In this document: positions 37,248 through 50,561 of the stretch, piece by piece
Position numbering within the stretch: position 1 is the stretch's first letter
How the letters are laid out: each line of letters opens with the position of its first letter
Origin: Acholeplasmatales bacterium
GTDB lineage: Bacteria; Bacillota_I; Bacilli_A; Acholeplasmatales; Anaeroplasmataceae
Reading direction: 5' to 3'
DNA length: 52,293 nt
Assembly: GCA_024697825.1 (NCBI GenBank)
Contig: JAILEP010000098.1
Location: forward strand, 1-52,293
The notes under the pieces: generated by a model
The model's database searches: none
What the model was told of the DNA's origin: nothing
What the model saw: the letters and a program-made list of their open reading frames with translations, nothing else
Position numbers and translations under genes: made by a program

Positions 37248-37646
37248 TTATTCAATCACGATGTATTTCTTTTCAGGCTCTACTGGTTTTACCTTAGCAG
37301 CGACAATTGCTAAGACGCCATTTTCAAGCTTAGCACGGATTGATGTCGAATCCGCATTCTTCATTTCGAAGCTACGAGTATAATCATAGCTTGAAGCAAC
37401 TTCATGTCTTAAATACTTATTAGAATCAGATTTTTCACTTTCTTCCTTCTTAACATGAACTGTTAAAATATTATCAGTGTAGTCAACATTGATATTTTCC
37501 TTTGTAACTCCTGGTACATCCATAGTTAATAGGTATGCATCATCTGTTTCCTCAAAATCTGCAGGTAATGTATTTCCACTTACTGAATTACCGAAGAAAT
37601 CATATAAATCATAAAGATCATTATAAATATTATTTAAGTTATACAT
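37248..37646 (-). CDS. Small heat-shock protein Hsp20 (second of pair)
   Basis: ATP-independent chaperone that holds unfolding proteins. The 132 residues hold an alpha-crystallin domain (about 27-122) with LTMDVPGVTKENINVDYTDNILTV and ENGVLAIV, and a C-terminal IxI-type anchor (YIVIE). It shares the CIRCE-controlled promoter with the upstream Hsp20 gene, 31 bases away. The two paralogs differ enough to form mixed oligomers; this is inference. Confidence 0.93.
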   Translation of the reverse strand: MYNLNNIYNDLYDLYDFFGNSVSGNTLPADFEETDDAYLLTMDVPGVTKENINVDYTDNILTVHVKKEESEKSDSNKYLRHEVASSYDYTRSFEMKNADSTSIRAKLENGVLAIVAAKVKPVEPEKKYIVIE

Positions 37647-37677
37647 AAAATTTACCTCTTTTCTAATATTTCATTCA

Positions 37678-38100
37678 TTACTCAATTGTAATGGTCTTCT
37701 TTACCTTTTCTTCTGGCTTCTTTAAAGCGATTGTTACATAAAGTAAGCCATTCTCATACTTAGCTGATACAGCTTCCTCTTCAATATCACCAAAGTATAA
37801 TGCACGCTCCAAATCAGCATCTGCTCTTTCCTTTAATAAATATCTCTTTTCAGGCTTAGCCTCAGTCTTTTCATCAGCCTTAGCCTCTGCCTTAGGGTGA
37901 GTTGCACTAATTGTTAATGTGCCATCCTCGAAAGTAACATTGATGTCTTCCTTGTTGAAGCCTGGCATCTGTGCTACTACCTGGTATTCATTCTCACCTT
38001 CTAATACGTTACAAGCAAAGCTTCTCTTGTAACCCTTCTTTTCGCTTGCTGCGAAAGCCTTATCCATTTCATTTGCTAAATCATATAATAAATCAAACAT
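37678..38100 (-). CDS. Small heat-shock protein Hsp20 (first of pair)
   Basis: Hsp20 chaperone of 140 residues. The alpha-crystallin domain begins near residue 30; VVAQMPGFNKEDINVTFEDGTLTIS and YENGLLYVTIALKKPEE are typical. A Lys/Glu/Ala-rich loop (about 68-85) is inserted before the dimerisation strand, and the C-terminal anchor is TITIE. It is the first gene behind two CIRCE operators, so HrcA control is expected, although hrcA is not in the window. Confidence 0.93.
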   Translation of the reverse strand: MFDLLYDLANEMDKAFAASEKKGYKRSFACNVLEGENEYQVVAQMPGFNKEDINVTFEDGTLTISATHPKAEAKADEKTEAKPEKRYLLKERADADLERALYFGDIEEEAVSAKYENGLLYVTIALKKPEEKVKKTITIE

Positions 38101-38332: not shown

Positions 38333-41300
38333 TTATTGCCACTTATTAACGATCTTTCCAAGGTTTTGGAATCCCTTCTTAATCCATGGAACAACATATT
38401 GTAAGAACTTCATTAATGGAGCTGCGGCTAAGCATAGGCATAGACAGAAAATTCTTTCTGTTAAGCTTAATGCTCTAATTAAGCCACCAGTTGTAACATT
38501 AACTGAAACCTCATAGTCAGTCTTGATTGAGGCAAATTTATAATAATATTTGCCATCCTCACCCTTATAGAATGTAGGATTTAAATTCTTGCCCTCATAT
38601 AGATATTCAGTATACCAGCCTTCAATTATATAATGATTAGCCTCTGTTACATCAATTGATGGACCAAACTGCTTATCACTTAATGAAACCTCAGTTGTAA
38701 CTAAATTATCGTTCTTCTTAATAGAATATACTGAAGCTCTAGCCTGAACATCTAGTGATAATTCACTACCAGCCTCATTAACCTTTATAGCGTCACCATT
38801 AACATCAGTAAATGATGCATAATCGTTTGTTGCGAAATTTTCAAAAGTAAAATCTGCAACTAGGTCATTATCTAAATCGACTGTCTCTCCAGCAATAACC
38901 TTGTATACCTTATCATATTCATCATAATATACATATTCATAATCAGTAGCCTCTTCAGTGCTATAGATAGTATATGTATTAACACCAGAAGGTAAAGCTT
39001 TAGCTAGACCATATAATTCAAATACAGTAATACCAGTATTAACTGCATCGAAGTAAACAGTCATTTCCTTCTCTCCTGATGAATTAAGTCTATTACCAAT
39101 AGTTGAAACAGTTGGCATAGAAACGAAATATGTTTCACTACTTGTAGATGACTTCTTTACAGCCTCACCATTAACTAATAATTCAAGATAATGCTCACCT
39201 GGAGTAATATTGATTGTAACATCAAGCTCATTCATCGCAGCCATCTGGGCAAATGATGGAGTGATATACCACTGCTCATCATTAATGAAGATATTGTTAC
39301 CTTCAATTTCTACTGTAGGTAGGATACAATACTGAACTGTTGCAGAATCTGCATCGCTTGATGCGCCATAATTTAGATTATATCCATAATATTCATTTTC
39401 CTTAGTTAATGTAGTATATAGAGGATTAGTATAATCTGATAAATAGACCATACCATTTCTATCAATGATTAAATCATCCTCAATATTTGTATAATAAGTA
39501 ATATCATTAATCTTATAGCCACCAGCGTAAATCTTACCATACTTATCATAATTAATATCTGGGATTTCAATCTCTACATTGATTTCAGAGTTATTAATAG
39601 CATAATTATAATTTTCTGAATTAGCACGTGTAAGAACTGGAGTATCAAAGTTATTATTAGTCTTTAAATCATTAACCTTACCATCAATTACATAATAGTT
39701 AGCACTTGATACTGCAACTCTTGGATATTCATCTAGGGTTTCAATAATTGCATTACTATTAGTATATTCAAATAATGAATGAATAGGTCTAAATTCAAGT
39801 AGATTAGGTAATAATGTAATAGATAATATAAATCCTGTGTAGCTAATTGTACATAGAATCTTACGTAATGTAGTAAATGGCTTACAAGCCTTGAATAATA
39901 CCATTAAGCTTGTATGTGTTGCAACAATAGCCATAATTGTTGTAAGTGATAAATCATCTAAGTTTAAATTGCCTTCAAGTGCGAAGATAATTACAGATAA
40001 TGTAACAATTACAATCGCACCTGGTAGGGCCTTCTTAATAACATTGTTTAAGAATCTACCCTTAACCGGTCTATTATTAGGCTCATTTACTAAGAATAAT
40101 GAAGGTAAGCCAATAGCTAAAATATCAATTAATATTAATTGCTTTGGTGTAATAGGATATACACCAGTGAATATTGCGATAATACCAAGTAATAATGAGA
40201 AGAAAGTCTTAGTTAAGAATAGAGACGCAACACTTGTTACGTTATTGATAACTCTTCTACCTTCTGCAACTACACTAGGCATTGAACCGAAATTAGAATC
40301 AGTTAAAACTAGATGTGAGCAATTTCTTGTAGCCTCACTACCAGAGCCTAAAGCAATTGAACAATCAGCCTCACGTAAAGCTAAGATATCGTTAACACCA
40401 TCACCAGTCATAGCAACAGTCTTATCAGCCTTCTTAAGTGTCTGAATAATAATCTTCTTTTGATTTGGAGATACACGTCCAAAAATCTTATATTTAAGGG
40501 CAGCACGTGCAACCTCTACATCACTCATACCATCAAGAGATACAAAATTTTCAGCATCAGGTACTCCTGCTCGCATACTAATCTTAGATACAGTGATCGG
40601 GTTATCACCTGAGATAACTCTAACCTCAACACCTGATTCCTTAAAATATTTAATTGTTGCGATAGCATCAGGTCTGATGTTATCCTCAATTAAAATCATC
40701 GCAACTACTTCAACAAATGCCTTAGGTAATTCACCATTTTGGATTTCACCATCCTGGTGGGCAAGACATAATACACGATAGCCTAGCTTAGCATATTTTT
40801 CAACATCCTTAGCTACTCTCTTATAATATTCACCTAAGGCGAATTCTGGAGCACCAAGAATGAATGTACCATAATTATCAAATGTTACAGCCTGATATTT
40901 TCTTTGTGAAGAGAATGGAATAGCTGCAGAGCTCTTCATTCTTCTACCAAGACCGAACTTATTAATTAATGCCTCACTAGTCATATTACGATCTGGTAAA
41001 GCATTTAATATAGCTGACACAATATTCTTTGTTGCAAGACCCTGAACCTGGTTATAATCAATAACATTCTTTACAACCATTGTACCATCAGTAATTGTAC
41101 CAGTCTTATCTAGACAGATACAGTTAACTCTTGCAAGCATTTCAATACAGTATAATTCCTGAACAAGTACATGTCTTTGTCCTAATCTAATTACACCTAC
41201 ATATAGGGCAATAGATGACATTAGGAATAATCCTGATGGAATCATACCTATCATGGCACCTGCAGTTTTTCTTACTGTATTAAAGAATGTAACATCATCA

Positions 41301-42346
41301 TTGAAATACATTCTAATAAATAAAGTCACACCGATAAGAATTACCGGAATTGACATAAACTTAATAATTAAATTTAAGGAAATTAATAAATCACTCTTTG
41401 GCTTCTTATAGGCCTTAGCCTGATTAGAAAGCTTTTCAATATAATTATCCTTACCAACCTTATCAACTCTAGCCTTACACTTTCCTGCAACTACGAATGA
41501 ACCAGAAAGTAGCTGATCACCTGGCTTTTTAATAATGGCATCACTTTCACCTGTTAAAAGTGATTCATTTACCTCAACCTGTCCTTCAACAACAATTGAG
41601 TCAGCACAAATCTGCTTACCACTATCAAGTAGAATTAAATCATCTAATACAACCTCATCAACAGGAATTTCCTTATTGATGCCATTACGCTTAACAATAG
41701 CGTAAGGGGCATTCATTAGAGATAAGCCATCAATCATCTTTTTAGCTCTAATTTCTTGAATAATACCAATTGTAATATTAATAAGTACAATTAATAAGAA
41801 TGATAAATCTGTAATTGGCTCCCATCTTTCATAAATGACAGATAAGGCAATTAAAATACCTGCAATAATGAAAATTAAAATATTGAAGAATGTAACTACA
41901 TTAGAAAATACAATTCTTCCAATAGACTTAGTCTTCATTTCACCTGTCTTATTGACAAGCTCATCAAGGATTCTCTCCTCAACAACCTCATTTGGTAGAC
42001 CAAATTCAGGATCAGTATCATATCTTAATAGGGTAGATGGATGCTTCTTAAGCTCTCTACGATGCTTCTTGATTTTCTTCATCTTTTCCTTATTAAGTTT
42101 CTTCTTTTCCTTTTCCTCAGCCTTGCGAATTTTCTTTTGTTCGCTCTTAGGCTGCATTTCGACCTCTTCTAAAACACGAGCTCTAGATTCATGAACCTCT
42201 ATCTTATCGACAGGATTCTGATATACAGCCGCATCTCCATCATCAGAATCTGATTCATCCGCAGTTAAATCCTCATCTGCTGTCTTAGCCAAATATTCAG
42301 TTAGATCCTTCTCGTCGAATTCATCAAAATTCTGGTCCTTCTTCAT
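38333..42346 (-). CDS. Giant CtpE-like P-type cation ATPase with large extracytoplasmic insert
   Basis: 1337 residues. Residues 1-104 are cytoplasmic, first acidic then Lys-rich. The P-type core follows: M1-M2 (about 148-196), actuator TGES (265-268), M3-M4 (319-388, IPSGLF), DKTGT phosphorylation site (Asp413), KTVAMTGDGVND (642-653) and helices to about 850. Residues 855-1285 are hydrophilic, Tyr/Asn/Thr-rich and probably beta-rich; a last hydrophobic segment follows at 1294-1320. Core motifs resemble mycobacterial CtpE-type calcium pumps, which lack this insert. GGGAGG overlaps the mrnC stop, so it is translated with mrnC. Confidence 0.88.
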   Translation of the reverse strand: MKKDQNFDEFDEKDLTEYLAKTADEDLTADESDSDDGDAAVYQNPVDKIEVHESRARVLEEVEMQPKSEQKKIRKAEEKEKKKLNKEKMKKIKKHRRELKKHPSTLLRYDTDPEFGLPNEVVEERILDELVNKTGEMKTKSIGRIVFSNVVTFFNILIFIIAGILIALSVIYERWEPITDLSFLLIVLINITIGIIQEIRAKKMIDGLSLMNAPYAIVKRNGINKEIPVDEVVLDDLILLDSGKQICADSIVVEGQVEVNESLLTGESDAIIKKPGDQLLSGSFVVAGKCKARVDKVGKDNYIEKLSNQAKAYKKPKSDLLISLNLIIKFMSIPVILIGVTLFIRMYFNDDVTFFNTVRKTAGAMIGMIPSGLFLMSSIALYVGVIRLGQRHVLVQELYCIEMLARVNCICLDKTGTITDGTMVVKNVIDYNQVQGLATKNIVSAILNALPDRNMTSEALINKFGLGRRMKSSAAIPFSSQRKYQAVTFDNYGTFILGAPEFALGEYYKRVAKDVEKYAKLGYRVLCLAHQDGEIQNGELPKAFVEVVAMILIEDNIRPDAIATIKYFKESGVEVRVISGDNPITVSKISMRAGVPDAENFVSLDGMSDVEVARAALKYKIFGRVSPNQKKIIIQTLKKADKTVAMTGDGVNDILALREADCSIALGSGSEATRNCSHLVLTDSNFGSMPSVVAEGRRVINNVTSVASLFLTKTFFSLLLGIIAIFTGVYPITPKQLILIDILAIGLPSLFLVNEPNNRPVKGRFLNNVIKKALPGAIVIVTLSVIIFALEGNLNLDDLSLTTIMAIVATHTSLMVLFKACKPFTTLRKILCTISYTGFILSITLLPNLLEFRPIHSLFEYTNSNAIIETLDEYPRVAVSSANYYVIDGKVNDLKTNNNFDTPVLTRANSENYNYAINNSEINVEIEIPDINYDKYGKIYAGGYKINDITYYTNIEDDLIIDRNGMVYLSDYTNPLYTTLTKENEYYGYNLNYGASSDADSATVQYCILPTVEIEGNNIFINDEQWYITPSFAQMAAMNELDVTINITPGEHYLELLVNGEAVKKSSTSSETYFVSMPTVSTIGNRLNSSGEKEMTVYFDAVNTGITVFELYGLAKALPSGVNTYTIYSTEEATDYEYVYYDEYDKVYKVIAGETVDLDNDLVADFTFENFATNDYASFTDVNGDAIKVNEAGSELSLDVQARASVYSIKKNDNLVTTEVSLSDKQFGPSIDVTEANHYIIEGWYTEYLYEGKNLNPTFYKGEDGKYYYKFASIKTDYEVSVNVTTGGLIRALSLTERIFCLCLCLAAAPLMKFLQYVVPWIKKGFQNLGKIVNKWQ

Positions 42347-42348
42347 GA

Positions 42349-42732
42349 CTATTCCTCCCTTATAGAAATAGCTTTAACAACTAATTCCTCTAATCTTTCA
42401 ATTTTTTCCGAAAGATATAAATACCCAACTAAGGCTTCAAAGCCTGTGGCATCTAAGTAATCCTTAAGCTCCATATTTTTACGTGATGATTTAACATGAG
42501 AATTACGTCCTCTCTTAAAGGCATTTAATTCATCCTCACTTAAAATCTCTTCGGCTAAAAATCTATGGATTACTGCAGCCTGTCCTTCGCCACTTGTATA
42601 GCGAATTACATGCTTATGCAAATCATTAACCTTGCCATATCCCATATCAAGTACATGCTTTCTAATATAGATTTCATATACTGCATCTCCAATATAAGCA
42701 AGTGATAAACCATTTAATGTATTAACATCCAT
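42349..42732 (-). CDS. mrnC: Mini-ribonuclease III (23S rRNA maturation)
   Basis: A dimeric RNase III catalytic domain without the double-stranded RNA-binding domain, which trims 23S rRNA precursor. The 127 residues show LAYIGDAVYEIYIR with the catalytic acids, the RYTSGEGQAAV segment, KRGRNSH and ATGFEALVGYLYLS. The start at 42732 shares one base with the cysS stop codon. The cysS-mrnC pairing is typical of Firmicutes. Confidence 0.93.
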   Translation of the reverse strand: MDVNTLNGLSLAYIGDAVYEIYIRKHVLDMGYGKVNDLHKHVIRYTSGEGQAAVIHRFLAEEILSEDELNAFKRGRNSHVKSSRKNMELKDYLDATGFEALVGYLYLSEKIERLEELVVKAISIREE

Positions 42733-44060
42733 TATAAAATATTCCATTCTGTAAGCTTAGCACGATAAATATCTGCAGTAGCGAAATCCTTATTGATTCT
42801 AGCCTCCTGCCACTTCTTATATGCATCAAGCTGCTCATCATTCATAGGATCTACGAATAAATTAATACCTAATACATTAAAGATAGTTCTTAAAGTATTT
42901 ACCTTAACTGCTAAAGCATCATAATCCTTAGCTCTTAATGTAGTATTGATAGATTTAACAATTTCATTTACTAATGTTAAAACATTTTGAACATTGAAAT
43001 CATCATCCATATACTTCTTAAATGCTTCAATATCAGCTGAATCTACATCATTTGTAGACTTACCCTCATACTGAAGAGTATATAAAGCCTGCTTATAAGC
43101 ACGGCACCACTTATCATATTCCTTAGCATACTGGTCAAATAATTCCATTGAATATGGAATGATTGATCTATATGGGCTGAATAAAATTAAGCATCTTAAT
43201 ACCATACCATCATGAGTTGAATTGATATTCTTTACATAAATAACATTACCTAAAGACTTACTCATCTTAACGCCCTTTAAATCAAGACGTCCAACATGAA
43301 TCCAATATTTTGCTAAATGACTGCCGTAGCAAGCCTCTGCCTGAGCAATCTCATTTTCATGGTGAGGGAACTTTAGGTCCATACCTCCACCATGAATATC
43401 GATAACATCACCAAATAACTTATGGTTCATAACAACACATTCAGTATGCCATCCAGGTCTACCTGAACCAAATGGAGCGTCCCACTTAATACCAGTATCT
43501 GTGTTCTTCCATAATGCGAAATCAAGTGGATTTTCCTTCTTAGAATCAACAGAGATTCTAGCTCCACTTTCTAAGTCCTCAGTTACCTGATTAGAAAGAC
43601 AACCATAATCCTTAACATTATTTACTCTAAAGAATACATCGCCATCTGCCTGATAAGCATAGCCCTTCTTCTCTAGCTCCTGAATAAAACTAATCATTTC
43701 AGGAATATATTCAGTTGCATGAGGAATTAAATCTGGCTTTTCTGAACCAACCATCTTTACTGAATCCCAGTATGCATTTTCGAAGAATGTTGCGATTTCC
43801 TTTTCTGTCTTTCCTTCTTCAATTGCCTTATTAATAATCTTATCATCTACATCTGTAATGTTAGATGCATAAGTAACGTCATAGCCTGAGAACTTTAAAT
43901 ATCTTCTCATCATATCATAGAAGATAACTGGTCTTGCATTACCAATATGAATATAGCCATAAACTGTAGGTCCACATACATACATATTTACCTTATTTCC
44001 ATTTAATGGCTTAAATTCTTCAAGCTTATTTGTTAGTGAATTATAGATAACTAAACCCAT
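42732..44060 (-). CDS. cysS: Cysteinyl-tRNA synthetase
   Basis: Attaches cysteine to tRNA-Cys. The 442-residue class I enzyme has the HIGH-type HIGNARP in CGPTVYGYIHIGNARP, zinc ligands in CGPT, WHTECV and FPHHENE, GGGMDLKFPHHE, and KMSKSLGN. It is slightly shorter than E. coli CysRS at the C-terminus but complete in its catalytic parts. AAGGAG precedes the ATG. A terminator hairpin lies about 24 bases upstream. Confidence 0.97.
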   Translation of the reverse strand: MGLVIYNSLTNKLEEFKPLNGNKVNMYVCGPTVYGYIHIGNARPVIFYDMMRRYLKFSGYDVTYASNITDVDDKIINKAIEEGKTEKEIATFFENAYWDSVKMVGSEKPDLIPHATEYIPEMISFIQELEKKGYAYQADGDVFFRVNNVKDYGCLSNQVTEDLESGARISVDSKKENPLDFALWKNTDTGIKWDAPFGSGRPGWHTECVVMNHKLFGDVIDIHGGGMDLKFPHHENEIAQAEACYGSHLAKYWIHVGRLDLKGVKMSKSLGNVIYVKNINSTHDGMVLRCLILFSPYRSIIPYSMELFDQYAKEYDKWCRAYKQALYTLQYEGKSTNDVDSADIEAFKKYMDDDFNVQNVLTLVNEIVKSINTTLRAKDYDALAVKVNTLRTIFNVLGINLFVDPMNDEQLDAYKKWQEARINKDFATADIYRAKLTEWNIL

Positions 44061-44117: not shown

Positions 44118-46073
44118 TTATGCTGTTACGTTTGCTGAAACGAAATCAGAAACGAATGAATCAAATGCTGATAAATCAGAACCTGCAGTATAAACTGCTA
44201 CATTATTTACCTTTGAATCATTATATGTATAAGCAACTGTATCATCAACAACTAAATATGTAGCTGTTAAAGTATATGTATAAGATGATGCCTTAGTGTA
44301 AACACCATCAGCATATGTATAATATGCAGTTGCAGTGAAGCTTGTAGATGCATTAACTGTTGTATCCTCAGTTGCAACTAAAGTATAGTAAGTCTTGCCC
44401 TCTGTATATTCAGAAGCCTTAGAATAAACTGTACCAGATAATGTATAATAATCAGCTGCTGTAAAATCAGTCTCTGAAGTTACTGTAGCTTCAGTAGCAA
44501 CAAGTGTGTAGTATGCTGGAACCTCAGTTACATCGAACTTTACACCCTTAATTGTAGCTGTTGATCCTAAAACTGGAGAGCTTACCTGCTTTTCAAACTG
44601 AGTAATTTCAGTTGAAGTTGCTTCTCTTGTAGTTGCTGCATAAACTGCGATTGCACCAGTCTTTGCTGCATAGTAGCAATCAGTTACCTCATCGAATACC
44701 TGATTTAAACCACCAACGAAGCCACCGATAAATGCATGATGACCACCTTCAGTTAACACATTTTCATTTAATACTTCAATATCTGAAGTTGTTGTTTCAG
44801 AAGTAACCTCTGCACCAGAAGAAACTGTAATATCTGCAAGTGCGAAACACTTAGTAATCTTTAATGAACCTGAATGATTTGTGCCAACGAAGCCACCAAC
44901 AACTAAATTGAATTCATTTGTATATGAAGTAGCTGTAGATCTAGTTAAAGCGATTGTTGCATCTGCATAGCAATTAGTTAATAAGCTTGGAGATGAAACA
45001 TCACCTGAGAAGCCACCAGCATGTACGAATGCATCTGCTGTAGTTGATGTACTAATGAAATATAATACACCCTTAATTGAACCTGCTGCTGAACAGCCTG
45101 TTGCTAAGCCTGTAAAATCATCTGTACCAACTGCATTACCATCAAGTAAGCCAGCGAATAAACCAACTGATACTCTCTGACGCATTCTTGTAAAGTTAAT
45201 ATCAATTGCAGTTGCCTGAACATTTACGAATGTAGAAGCTGATGCATAACCAGCAACACCACCAACTCTTAAAATTGCTGATGTATTACCCTGAATATCA
45301 ATATCAACATTATTTACTGTAATATCCTCTACTACAGTTTCAATTGCTGTACCTACTACTGCACCAATCTGAGCTGAAGCACGTCCTGAAGAGAAATCAC
45401 CAATAACTGTATCCATTGTGAAATTCTTAATTGTTGCTTCTTCTGTATAATTGAATAATGCTGTATTTGTCTGAGCATATAATGTTACATTAGAAATTGT
45501 ATGACCCTGTCCATCAAATGTTCCCTTAAATGGATTTGATGAAGAAAGCTTTGATTCACTTAAATCAACACCTGTGAAGTCTAAGTCAGCTGTTAATACG
45601 AAATTACCTTCAACATCTTCATTAATCTTTGTAATAAATTCATCTGTAGTTGCAATTTCTGTTGCTGAATCAGCACTACCAGTTGAGCTTGTCTTAGCCT
45701 TTAATGAAGTAATTAATTCATCAGAGCTATCATAAGTGATGTATAGCTTGAATAAATAATATGTGTCAGAATCTAAACCTGTGAAAGTTGTTTCTGCTTC
45801 AGTATAGCTACCATCAAATGTAATCTTGTTTACCTGTGAATCGTAAACCTCATTACCATCCTCATCGTATGAGTACTGCTTTACTGTAGGCACTGCTGCA
45901 CCACTAGTAAGATTGTCATTAGCTGCAAAGTCGATTGTGATAGTTACTGTAGTCATTGTTGATGTATAAGACATCGCTGCTTCAACACCAGATGCGTTAC
46001 CACCGCATGATGCTAAAATAACAAGACCAAGAACTGCCGCAAGCATTGCAGTTATTCTTTTAAATATTTTCAT
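44118..46073 (-). CDS. Surface lipoprotein with GLUG-type repeats and C-terminal tandem repeats
   Basis: 651 residues. A signal peptide ends in the lipobox LASC, with lipid-modified Cys23. Residues about 30-125 look like a beta-sandwich domain. Residues about 150-490 form a probable beta-helix with GLUG-like turns (GTFDGQGHTISNVTL, GGVAGYAS, AGGFSGDVSS, GGFVGTNHSG, GGFVGGLN). Residues 521-601 hold two similar modules of about 40 residues starting YYTLVATE. There are very few basic residues, as in secreted proteins. It is likely an adhesin or substrate-binding surface protein; the ligand is unknown. It is transcribed from its own promoter. Confidence 0.82.
   Translation of the reverse strand: MKIFKRITAMLAAVLGLVILASCGGNASGVEAAMSYTSTMTTVTITIDFAANDNLTSGAAVPTVKQYSYDEDGNEVYDSQVNKITFDGSYTEAETTFTGLDSDTYYLFKLYITYDSSDELITSLKAKTSSTGSADSATEIATTDEFITKINEDVEGNFVLTADLDFTGVDLSESKLSSSNPFKGTFDGQGHTISNVTLYAQTNTALFNYTEEATIKNFTMDTVIGDFSSGRASAQIGAVVGTAIETVVEDITVNNVDIDIQGNTSAILRVGGVAGYASASTFVNVQATAIDINFTRMRQRVSVGLFAGLLDGNAVGTDDFTGLATGCSAAGSIKGVLYFISTSTTADAFVHAGGFSGDVSSPSLLTNCYADATIALTRSTATSYTNEFNLVVGGFVGTNHSGSLKITKCFALADITVSSGAEVTSETTTSDIEVLNENVLTEGGHHAFIGGFVGGLNQVFDEVTDCYYAAKTGAIAVYAATTREATSTEITQFEKQVSSPVLGSTATIKGVKFDVTEVPAYYTLVATEATVTSETDFTAADYYTLSGTVYSKASEYTEGKTYYTLVATEDTTVNASTSFTATAYYTYADGVYTKASSYTYTLTATYLVVDDTVAYTYNDSKVNNVAVYTAGSDLSAFDSFVSDFVSANVTA
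44271..44513 (-). repeat. Tandem coding repeat in the lipoprotein gene
   Basis: Two adjacent modules of about 41 and 40 codons share YYTLVATE, a Thr/Ser-rich middle, F-TA--YYT and VY-KAS-YT. This is an in-frame expansion within the 3' part of the gene. Confidence 0.8.
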
Positions 46074-46358: not shown

Positions 46359-49277
46359 ATGCTTAGAATGGGACTTGATGTCGGTTCTACTACAATAAAG
46401 TGCGTTGTTATGGATGAAAATGACCACATTATTTACAAGGACTATAAGAGACATTATTCACACATAAAAGATAATATCATTGATAAGCTAAAGGAACTTA
46501 GAGAGTCAGGCATAATCGGAGATAAGATTAACCTTGCTATTTCTGGTTCTGCTGGTATGGGTATGGCTGATGGTGCACATATTCCTTTCGTTCAGGAGGT
46601 ATATGCTACACGTGTTGCTGCCCAAAGACTTATTCCAGGTACTGACGTTATCATTGAGCTTGGTGGAGAGGACGCAAAAATTCTTTTCCTAACCGATGGT
46701 ATGGAAGTAAGAATGAATGGTTCTTGTGCCGGTGGTACTGGTGCCTTCATTGACCAGATGGCTACTCTATTAAATGTTGATATTACAGAAATCAATGGTC
46801 TTGCAATGAACCATCAGAAGATTTATTCTATCGCTTCTCGTTGTGGTGTATTCGCAAAATCTGATATCCAACCACTTCTTAACCAGGGCGCATCTAAGTC
46901 TGATGTTGCTGCATCTATTTTCCATGCAGTAGTTAACCAGACAGTTGGTGGCTTAGCTCAGGGTAGAGATATTAAAGGTAAGGTTGCATATCTAGGTGGA
47001 CCATTAACCTTCTTATCAGAATTAAAGCAGGCATTCGATGATGTTTTACATACAGAAGGTATTTCTCCAAAGAATTCATTATATTATGTTTCTATTGGTG
47101 CTGCATTCTGTGCAAAGGAAACAATCGATGTTGATCAGACAATCAAGAATTTAATTGAATTCTCAAATAAGGCAACATATGCTTATAACTCTCCTTTATT
47201 TAAGGATGAGAATGAATATAACGAATTCATCGAAAGACATTCAAAGGCTAGAGTTGAAACTCTTCCTCTTGAAGAATACGATGGACCACTTTATTTAGGT
47301 ATTGATTCTGGTTCTACTACCTTAAAGCTTGTATTAATCGATACAGATGGTAACATCCGTTTTGATAGATACCAGCCTAATAGAGGTAACCCAGTATCAG
47401 TTATTAAAGAGATTTTAGCTGAATTATTCAGTAAATATCCTAACCTAAACATTCAAGGCTCTGCCTCAACAGGATATGGTGAGGATTTAGCTAAGAATGC
47501 ATTTAAGCTAGATGGTGGCTTAGTTGAAACTATGGCTCACTATATGGCCGCAAAGAAATTTATGCCAAATGTTGATTTCATTATCGATATTGGTGGACAA
47601 GATATTAAGTGCTTTAAGATTGAAAATGACGCAATCGCAAATATCTTCCTAAATGAAGCATGCTCATCAGGATGTGGTTCCTTCCTACAGACATTTGCCA
47701 ATGCACTTGGCTATGATATTAAGGATTTCGCACAGATTGGTTTAATGGCACCAAAGCCAGTTGACCTAGGCTCTAGATGTACAGTATTTATGAACTCATC
47801 TGTTAAGCAGGCTCAAAAGGATGGTGCAACTATTGATAACATTTCTGCAGGTCTTTCAATTTCAGTTGTAAAGAACGCATTATATAAGGTTATCCGTGCT
47901 ACATCTAAGGAACAGCTAGGTAAGCACATTGTAGTTCAGGGTGGTACATTCCTAAATAAGGCTGTACTTAGAGCCTTTGAGCGTGAATTAGACCTAGAGG
48001 TTGTATGTCCTAATATTGCTGGTCTAATGGGTGCTTATGGTGCTGCACTATATGCTAAATCATTAAAGGTTGAACATTCTACTACTATCACAGCTCCTGA
48101 GCTTGCAAGCTTTAAGCATGAGGTTAAAAACTTCACATGTGGTGGATGTAATAACCACTGCTTATTAACATTAAATACATTTGGAGATAATCCTAATAAA
48201 TTTATTTCTGGTAATAAGTGTGATAAGCCACTTGGTATTAAGGCAGATAAAAAGGGTAAAAACCTTTATGAATATACAAGAAACAAGCTTGAATCATATA
48301 AGCCAGTTGAAAATGCTCCAAGAGGAGAAATCGCAATTCCTCTTGTACTTAATATGTATGAGCTATTCCCATTCTGGTATCGATTCTTTACAGAGCTAGG
48401 CTTCTCAGTTAAATCTAGTGGTTTCTCTAATGCAAAGATCTATTCACTTGGTCAGCATACAATCCCATCAGATACTGTTTGCTATCCTGCAAAGCTTGTT
48501 CATGGTCATATTGAAAAGCTAATCAATGATGGCAACAAGAATATCTTCTATCCATGTATGTCATATAATTATGATGAGCATATGGGAGATAATCATTATA
48601 ACTGCCCAATTGTAGCTTATTATCCACAAAATATTTTAAATAATGTTTCTAGTATTAAGGATGTAACATTCATTTCTGATTTTATCGGTATTGATGTTAG
48701 AGAATTATTCGATAAGAAGATTAAGCTTGTATTAGATAAATACTTTAAGGGTATTTCTAAAAAGGAAATAAAGAAGGCCGCTGATGCCGCATATAAGGAA
48801 TATGAGGATTATCTAGCAGATATTCGTGCAACTGGTGCTGAATATATTAAGGAAGCTAGAGAAAAGCATATGGAAATTATCGTATTAGCTGGTAGACCAT
48901 ATCATGTTGACCCACAGGTTAACCATGGTATTGATAAGCTAATTACTTCTTTAGGTGCTTATGTAGTAAGTGAGGAATCAGTTTCTCATTTAAATACTAA
49001 ATTCCCAGTGCATGTATTAAATCAGTGGACATATCATTCAAGATTATATTCTGCAGCTAAATACTGTACTCATGAGGATGATATGAATCTAGTACAGCTT
49101 GTATCATTTGGTTGTGGTGTTGATGCCGTAACCACAGATGAATGTAAATCAATTCTTGAATCTAAGGGTAAAATCTATACTCAGATTAAGATTGATGAAA
49201 TAACTAACCTTGGTGCTGTAAAGATAAGACTTAGAAGCTTATTTGCAGCTCTTAAGCAGAAAAGGGAGGAAAAATAA
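46359..49277 (+). CDS. Double 2-hydroxyacyl-CoA dehydratase activase with DUF2229 domain
   Basis: 972 residues. There are two ASKHA ATPase activase domains of the HgdC/BcrAD type. The first (about 1-255) starts GLDVGSTTIKCVVM and has cluster cysteines Cys123 and Cys162. The second (about 311-570) starts GIDSGSTTLKLVLI with Cys435, Cys439 and Cys474. A DUF2229-type region follows, opening with four Cys (594, 597, 601, 621). Such activases use ATP to push single electrons onto partner iron-sulfur proteins. The natural substrate is unknown. The downstream gene begins at the next base. Confidence 0.9.
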   Translation: MLRMGLDVGSTTIKCVVMDENDHIIYKDYKRHYSHIKDNIIDKLKELRESGIIGDKINLAISGSAGMGMADGAHIPFVQEVYATRVAAQRLIPGTDVIIELGGEDAKILFLTDGMEVRMNGSCAGGTGAFIDQMATLLNVDITEINGLAMNHQKIYSIASRCGVFAKSDIQPLLNQGASKSDVAASIFHAVVNQTVGGLAQGRDIKGKVAYLGGPLTFLSELKQAFDDVLHTEGISPKNSLYYVSIGAAFCAKETIDVDQTIKNLIEFSNKATYAYNSPLFKDENEYNEFIERHSKARVETLPLEEYDGPLYLGIDSGSTTLKLVLIDTDGNIRFDRYQPNRGNPVSVIKEILAELFSKYPNLNIQGSASTGYGEDLAKNAFKLDGGLVETMAHYMAAKKFMPNVDFIIDIGGQDIKCFKIENDAIANIFLNEACSSGCGSFLQTFANALGYDIKDFAQIGLMAPKPVDLGSRCTVFMNSSVKQAQKDGATIDNISAGLSISVVKNALYKVIRATSKEQLGKHIVVQGGTFLNKAVLRAFERELDLEVVCPNIAGLMGAYGAALYAKSLKVEHSTTITAPELASFKHEVKNFTCGGCNNHCLLTLNTFGDNPNKFISGNKCDKPLGIKADKKGKNLYEYTRNKLESYKPVENAPRGEIAIPLVLNMYELFPFWYRFFTELGFSVKSSGFSNAKIYSLGQHTIPSDTVCYPAKLVHGHIEKLINDGNKNIFYPCMSYNYDEHMGDNHYNCPIVAYYPQNILNNVSSIKDVTFISDFIGIDVRELFDKKIKLVLDKYFKGISKKEIKKAADAAYKEYEDYLADIRATGAEYIKEAREKHMEIIVLAGRPYHVDPQVNHGIDKLITSLGAYVVSEESVSHLNTKFPVHVLNQWTYHSRLYSAAKYCTHEDDMNLVQLVSFGCGVDAVTTDECKSILESKGKIYTQIKIDEITNLGAVKIRLRSLFAALKQKREEK

Positions 49278-50561
49278 ATGGTAGATACTTATGAAGAAGA
49301 CTTCAACTATCCCCGCTTTACTGAAGATATGGTAAAGGACCACACTATTCTAATCCCTCAGATGCTACCAATTCATATGTCTTTATTTGAATCAGCTTTA
49401 ATTCAGGCTGGCTATAAGGTAGAGATTATGAGAAATGAAGGTCCTGAGGTTGTTCAGGAGGGTCTAAAGTATGTACATAATGATACATGCTATCCAGCTC
49501 TTTTAGTTATCGGACAGTTCATTGATAATTTAAATCATAGAAACGATCATGATAAGCTAGTTCTTCTTATCACACAAACAGGTGGTGGATGCCGTGCATC
49601 TAACTACCTACACCTTTTAAGAAAGGCACTTAAGAAGGCTGGCTATGGATTTATTCCAGTTGTATCACTTAATGCCTCTAACCTAGAAAAGGATTCAGGC
49701 TTTAAGCTTACATTCCCATTAATTAGAAAGCTTGTCCCTGCAATCACTTATGGTGATGAGCTTATGTATTTACGTAACAAAACTCAAACATATGAGGTAA
49801 ACAAGGGTGAAACTGCAGCTTTAGTTGATAAATGGCTAAAGAAGATTTCAGATCAGTTTGCTAATAAAAAGGGTATTTCACATGGAGATGTAAAGAAAAA
49901 CCTTAACCAAATGGCTAAGGAATTTGACGCAATCCAGGTTGATTTATCACATAAAAAGCCAAGAGTTGGTATCGTAGGTGAAATTTATATTAAATATGCA
50001 TCCTTAGGTAACAACCATCTTGAGGACTTCTTAGTTTCTCAGGACGCAGAGGTAATGGTACCAGGCTTATATGGATTCCTATTATATTGTGTACAGAATA
50101 ATATATATGATTATGAAATCTATGGTAAGAATAAGAGAACAGCTAAGATTTCTAAGCTACTTCTTTGGTATTTAAGACGTCAGGAAACAATGATGATTAA
50201 TGCCATGAAGGATACTAAATTCTCACCAATGAATTATTTCGCTCATACTAAGGAGCTATCTAATGGTGTATTAGACCATGGTACTAAGATGGGCGAGGGC
50301 TGGTTACTTACAGCTGAAATGATGGAATTAATCGAGGAAGGCTATGAGAACATTATTTGTGCTCAGCCATTTGGATGTCTTCCTAACCACATTTGTGGTA
50401 AGGGCGTTATGAAGAAGATTAAATCAATTCATCAGGACGCAAACATTGTCGCAATCGATTATGACCCATCTGCCACAAAGGTAAATCAGGAAAATAGAAT
50501 CAAGCTAATGCTTGCAATCGCAAGAGAGCGTATTACAGAAGATGACAAAGCCGAGCTATAA
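49278..50561 (+). CDS. 2-hydroxyacyl-CoA dehydratase-like iron-sulfur protein
   Basis: 427 residues, matching the C-terminal part of giant activase fusion proteins and related to HgdB and double-cubane cluster proteins. Candidate cluster ligands are Cys71 (NDTCYPA), Cys105 (GGGCRASN), Cys361, Cys367 and Cys373 (CAQPFGCLPNHIC). GEGWLLTAEM is a typical family segment. It starts at the base after the activase stop codon with GGGAGG upstream. Together the two proteins total 1399 residues, about the size of the fused form known elsewhere. The reaction is not assigned. Confidence 0.85.
   Translation: MVDTYEEDFNYPRFTEDMVKDHTILIPQMLPIHMSLFESALIQAGYKVEIMRNEGPEVVQEGLKYVHNDTCYPALLVIGQFIDNLNHRNDHDKLVLLITQTGGGCRASNYLHLLRKALKKAGYGFIPVVSLNASNLEKDSGFKLTFPLIRKLVPAITYGDELMYLRNKTQTYEVNKGETAALVDKWLKKISDQFANKKGISHGDVKKNLNQMAKEFDAIQVDLSHKKPRVGIVGEIYIKYASLGNNHLEDFLVSQDAEVMVPGLYGFLLYCVQNNIYDYEIYGKNKRTAKISKLLLWYLRRQETMMINAMKDTKFSPMNYFAHTKELSNGVLDHGTKMGEGWLLTAEMMELIEEGYENIICAQPFGCLPNHICGKGVMKKIKSIHQDANIVAIDYDPSATKVNQENRIKLMLAIARERITEDDKAEL

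Follow-up and report, generated by a model that had tools for sequence, protein, structure and literature searches.

CtpE is a Ca2+ uptake pump that carries the sequence VPEGL in its fourth membrane helix, M4 (PMC5615198). In the P6 family of P-type ATPases, which includes CtpE, the PEGL sequence is present and the aspartate of M6 is absent (PMC10654040). Members of the CtpE/P6 family have also been reported in Tenericutes (PMC5615198, PMC10654040).

Separate β subunits that bear an ectodomain have been described in the P2C and P4A pumps (PMC10654040). Like the domain that we describe below, the Na,K-ATPase β subunit and CDC50, the β subunit of the P4A pumps, contribute an ectodomain to the outside of a P-type pump; they are, however, separate glycosylated subunits without sequence match to it, whereas here the ectodomain lies within the pump chain. 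The ectodomains of P-type pumps usually come as separate subunits and their outside loops are short, while in the pump studied here and its insert-bearing orthologs 300-510 residues are built into the chain. No P-type ATPase with a comparable outside domain was found in the open-access literature.

The pump gene is located in a window of 52,293 nucleotides, the whole stretch of DNA that was analysed (contig JAILEP010000098.1 of assembly GCA_024697825.1, from an Acholeplasmatales bacterium of the family Anaeroplasmataceae, to which the gut bacterium Anaeroplasma belongs). Its features and those of its upstream neighbours are listed in Table 1.

Table 1. Features of the pump gene and its upstream neighbours, in window coordinates
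Feature	Coordinates	Strand	Basis
CDS, P-type ATPase (CtpE/P6-like) with predicted M9-M10 ectodomain, 1337 aa	38333..42346	(-)	ORF, motifs, orthologs in relatives
N-terminal charged cytoplasmic extension, residues 1-139	41930..42346	(-)	composition
Pump core, residues 140-827: M1-M8, A domain (TGES), P/N domains (DKTGT, GDGVND)	39866..41929	(-)	translation, Pfam, model, hydropathy
M4 motif PSGL (residues 370-373), replacing PEGL	41228..41239	(-)	
M9, residues 828-852	39791..39865	(-)	ortholog alignment, model, hydropathy
Predicted extracytoplasmic β-repeat insert, residues 853-1294, 442 aa	38465..39790	(-)	alignment to short-loop orthologs
Membrane-proximal repeat unit, N-terminal copy (PRVAVSSANYYVIDG...)	39560..39724	(-)	profile A4 match (copy itself in profile), hhalign
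Membrane-proximal repeat unit, C-terminal copy (PSIDVTEANHYIIEGWYTEY...)	38498..38662	(-)	profile A4 match (copy itself in profile), hhalign
M10, residues 1295-1320, then Lys-rich C-terminus	38387..38464	(-)	ortholog alignment, model, hydropathy
mrnC-like (Ribonuclease_3 domain), upstream neighbour, conserved synteny	42349..42747	(-)	
cysS, conserved synteny	42732..44060	(-)	
GLUG-motif protein, lipobox-like N-terminus (LASC), conserved synteny	44118..46073	(-)	

The pump core

The translated gene contains the DKTGT phosphorylation motif, the TGES loop of the A domain and the GDGVND hinge, which place it among the P-type ATPases. It matches the Pfam families E1-E2_ATPase (5e-41) and Hydrolase (2e-22), and it matches the NCBIfam family ATPase_P-type far above the cut-off; this general family was the only one found, as none of the specific NCBIfam equivalogs scored above its cut-off. 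In Foldseek comparisons, the model of the full pump matched the P2 ATPase structures LMCA1, SPCA1 and SERCA, with E values down to 8e-34 and TM up to 0.6 of the target. The N-terminal extension is highly charged (Asp plus Glu, 26.6%; Lys plus Arg, 21.6%) and varies in length among orthologs.

Like CtpE of Mycobacterium (P6; family 23), the pump has ten membrane helices, the P-type core motifs and an isoleucine in place of the M6 aspartate. The M6 sequence reads ...DILAIGLPS..., and the position of SERCA D800, aligned by hand, is occupied by Ile or Val in the pump and its orthologs. M4, on the other hand, reads PSGL instead of PEGL in this pump and in nearly all orthologs of the order, so that Ca2+ is not established as its substrate. 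CtpE of M. smegmatis has 791 aa in all and, of the two pumps, only the one described here has PSGL and the 442-residue M9-M10 ectodomain. By its motifs, we call the pump P6-like rather than a P6 member. The original reading of a CtpE-type calcium ATPase is therefore retained as regards a CtpE-like pump and is not established as regards calcium.

Several members of the genus have a second P6-like pump (L057, L058 and L059), which is 36-40% identical to the core and has a conserved loop of about 53 residues between M9 and M10.

Predicted location of the M9-M10 insert

In every P-type ATPase, the A domain (M2-M3 loop) and the P/N domain (M4-M5 loop) are cytoplasmic. Hydropathy analysis located M1 to M9, no hydrophobic stretch in residues 853-1290 (maximum 19-residue mean of 0.98) and M10 at about residues 1295-1320. 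Counting the helices onward from the cytoplasmic domains, the M9-M10 loop would thus be outside. The translation also presents the expected charge pattern, in which the M6-M7 loop, the M8-M9 loop and the C-terminus are rich in Lys and Arg and the M7-M8 loop is acidic. An AlphaFold model of residues 140-1337 (mean pLDDT 77, pTM 0.51) has the ten membrane helices of a P2-like fold, with an all-β insert between M9 and M10. From the core motifs, the charge pattern and the model, the insert is predicted to be extracytoplasmic. These lines of evidence bear out the earlier proposal of a large outside insert between the last two helices, and the final membrane segment that it expected after the hydrophilic stretch corresponds to M10, both in hydropathy and in the ortholog alignment.

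Composition, repeats and predicted fold of the insert

The insert had initially been delimited to residues 855-1285 (38492-39784); it is the same region, which the alignment with short-loop orthologs extends to 853-1294. With 10% Tyr, 9.5% Asn, 8.8% Thr and a net charge of -40, the composition agrees, together with the hydropathy and the all-β model, with the description of a hydrophilic, Tyr/Asn/Thr-rich and β-prone stretch.

The insert contains internal repeats, as judged by a profile self-comparison (E 4e-9) and by an hhalign self-match of residues 14-79 with residues 368-433 of the insert model (E 9e-8). The repeat unit can be approximated as P-x-I-x-x-[ST]-x-x-[GN]-x-Y-x-[IV]-[DN]-G-x-x-T-x-Y, and it was not found outside the pump gene at E<0.01 in 11 genomes. 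The predicted structure of the insert alone (pLDDT 78, pTM 0.72) is all β, and a pattern of three strands recurs in it. The two ends of the insert are its best-conserved parts (mean conservation 0.59-0.60); the middle is the least conserved (0.26) and has 44% gaps. In 27 inserts, prolines, glycines and tyrosines are conserved and a Thr-Asp pair is invariant, the Asp of which is the only invariant acidic position.

The structure prediction and fold search that had been suggested for this region gave the all-β model and no confident fold match. Searches of Pfam, NCBIfam and PHROGs at E<=1 for a known domain returned scattered weak matches to only one or two members, the Na,K-ATPase β subunit (PF00287) was absent from the Pfam matches at E<=1 of 22 insert members, and the comparison with PDB sequences gave nothing below 0.017. 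With the insert alone, Foldseek found nothing at E<=0.001 among PDB structures or viral models; a propeller fold was discarded, as the weak Foldseek matches superpose badly. The best VIA structural row was OspA of Borrelia (47 residues aligned, rmsd 2.5), which spans about one tenth of the insert; its single-layer β-sheet shares β-hairpin repeats with the insert, but the Z of 3.2 is too low for kinship. Based on sequence and model, the insert is a predicted chain of small β-strand repeat units, without a confident match to a known family or fold. A phage origin was also considered and rejected: tblastn against 50,697 phage records gave no match, and viral contigs contained no relative.

Distribution and origin of the insert

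A P-type ATPase match was present in 60 of the 60 relatives searched. The gene order GLUG lipoprotein, cysS, mrnC and pump is common to genomes with and without the insert, which identifies the insert-bearing and insert-free pumps as true orthologs. The short-loop orthologs (L034 and others), from genus g7 and other families of Acholeplasmatales, share the locus and the motifs with this pump, including those compared in M4, M5 and M6, and are 50-61% identical to it in the core. They differ from it in their M9-M10 loop, which has 15 aa in genus g7 and, across four further families of the order, 15-22 aa.

In the survey of related genomes that had been proposed, the insert profile matched 49 of 55 Anaeroplasmataceae genomes, and in a sample of 395 genomes of the class its matches were confined to this family. 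The six non-matches comprise G032, of genus g7, where the insert is truly absent; G015 and G067, in which the pump gene is cut by contig ends; two incomplete genomes (G030 and G074); and G065, in which no ortholog of the pump was found. Neither of the two cut genes was accepted as insert-free, and the last residues of that in G067 already match the insert start. The number of matching family genomes, together with the purifying selection described below, places the insert far beyond chance.

In a FastTree phylogeny built on the pump core, genus g7 is the earliest branch of the family (family-node support 0.87) and all other members carry the insert, which indicates a single gain followed by growth. 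The insert was gained once, after g7 had split off, in the ancestor of most Anaeroplasmataceae. On the core tree, the loop lengthens stepwise from about 300 residues (297-310 aa in g2, g3 and g5) to 360 in g4, 386 in g6 and 419-511 in g1. The branch of the gain can therefore be identified, and the insert-free orthologs at the same locus are natural controls, with which one can test, in one gene, what an ectodomain does to a P-type pump.

That the long frame could be a fusion of two genes, created by assembly or gene prediction, had been raised with the original prediction. The same insert is present in the same continuous frame of the same syntenic gene in >25 assemblies, including that of the isolate Anaeroplasma bactoclasticum ATCC 27112 (L074), where the loop has 437 residues and the gene lies on a 238 kb scaffold. 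As the GC content of the insert (0.316) is also close to that of the core (0.334), we consider such an artefact extremely unlikely.

Among 392 genomes of the phylum surveyed for the pump core, one clearly long frame was found outside Anaeroplasmataceae (G545). Its extra sequence, of about 180 residues in the M3-M4 loop, is present in four of four genomes of that family. The P6-like pumps of this other Bacilli family (L145, L151 and L152) thus also carry a conserved hydrophilic insert on the extracytoplasmic side, but it occupies a different loop and does not resemble the M9-M10 insert in sequence to any meaningful degree. This unrelated insert implies at least two gains of outside-loop domains within this group of pumps, and that the outside loops of the pump tolerate such gains. 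As a tentative generalization, which we regard as possible rather than probable, the P6-like pumps of Mollicutes-related Bacilli may have repeatedly grown built-in 'β subunits': unrelated ectodomains in different outside loops, that of Anaeroplasmataceae with a β-repeat fold not seen before, which would bind to the pump or to partners outside the cell and thereby tune transport.

Evolutionary constraint

Among insert-bearing genes, identity to this pump is 58-78% in the core and 22-40% in the insert. In 11 close pairs, dN/dS was 0.15-0.75 for the insert and 0.01-0.13 for the core; these values, obtained by the Nei-Gojobori method, are rough, since dS was mostly 0.4-1. The insert value is <1 in all pairs, which indicates purifying selection. 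The insert is thus constrained, though several times less than the core, which fits a surface-exposed domain; its high dN/dS would also be compatible with a weakly constrained domain that has no specific function. In the latter case, repeats would have grown near-neutrally in a tolerant surface loop, in agreement with the repeats, the high divergence and the length variation of the insert and with the second, independent loop expansion in the other family. Nevertheless, none of the complete pump genes seen across genera g1-g6 lacks the insert, and the purifying selection and the conserved prolines, glycines and tyrosines also make a near-neutral expansion quite unlikely.

Possible roles of the ectodomain

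In P2 pumps, M7-M10 are support helices; by this analogy, a domain inserted between M9 and M10 would be tolerable. The orthologs with loops of 15-22 residues keep the core and its motifs, from which we infer that the ectodomain is unneeded for the basic cycle. As far as sequence comparison can tell, the insert is probably an accessory ectodomain. We propose that a CtpE/P6-like cation pump acquired this large extracytoplasmic domain in a single event; its two ends, adjoining the membrane, would form a conserved base, and its middle, probably the distal part, would have lengthened and diverged rapidly. ATP hydrolysis and ion translocation would proceed as in the short-loop orthologs, with the ectodomain as a module outside the transport cycle. 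At the cell surface, it may contact an outside partner or sterically cover the face of the pump, in a manner comparable to the separate β subunits of Na,K-ATPase and of the P4 flippases. A contact or cover role appears to be the most likely among the roles considered, and we hold it with modest confidence.

The ectodomain could instead act, in line with the ion capture first suggested, as an ion antenna, concentrating or pre-binding the cation outside and feeding the pump, or buffering the exported ion. The inserts of all 27 members examined are acidic (net charge -14 to -43) and belong to a cation pump. Acidity is, however, frequent in surface proteins, and a single invariant acidic position leaves no conserved set of ion ligands, which makes this role unlikely.

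A sensor function, likewise put forward earlier, in which binding of a ligand or ion at the ectodomain would be relayed through M9 and M10 to switch pump activity, is suggested by the covalent connection to two helices and by the conserved membrane-proximal base. The middle of the insert, a possible ligand site, is nevertheless variable in sequence and length, and in P2 pumps little movement is expected of M9 and M10; we consider this function decidedly unlikely.

Cell-wall binding had also been put forward. Anaeroplasmataceae is a reference family for peptidoglycan deficiency in which some wall genes are still found in 40-60% of the genomes (PMC10868615). In favour of wall binding, some insert-bearing relatives keep penicillin-binding protein (PBP) and MurG-like genes. 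PBP transpeptidases and MurG gave no match in the genome that carries this pump, nor are they present in many other insert-bearing genomes, and the insert matches no cell-wall-binding Pfam domain. As this genome lacks both proteins, and as the insert is found in relatives whether or not they have wall genes, binding to the wall is very unlikely. A link of the insert to wall loss was also discarded because the insert occurs both with and without PBP genes. Within the family, PBP transpeptidases and MurG-like proteins are patchy, being present in g6, g3, g7 and some g1 and absent from this genome and from g2; g4 lacks PBP.

Neighbouring genes

The GLUG-motif protein is located upstream of cysS-mrnC-pump across the order, despite a sequence likeness of only 24-40%. 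Its sequence points to a putative surface lipoprotein tied to the pump locus. Directly downstream of the pump, two adjacent and diverged Hsp20 genes were found (37248-38100, (-)), which are not beside the pump in most relatives examined. On the opposite strand, the region 46359-50561 (+) comprises a BadF/BcrA-type CoA enzyme activase with DUF2229 and, directly after it, a second ORF (49278-50561) with a weak DUF2229 match.
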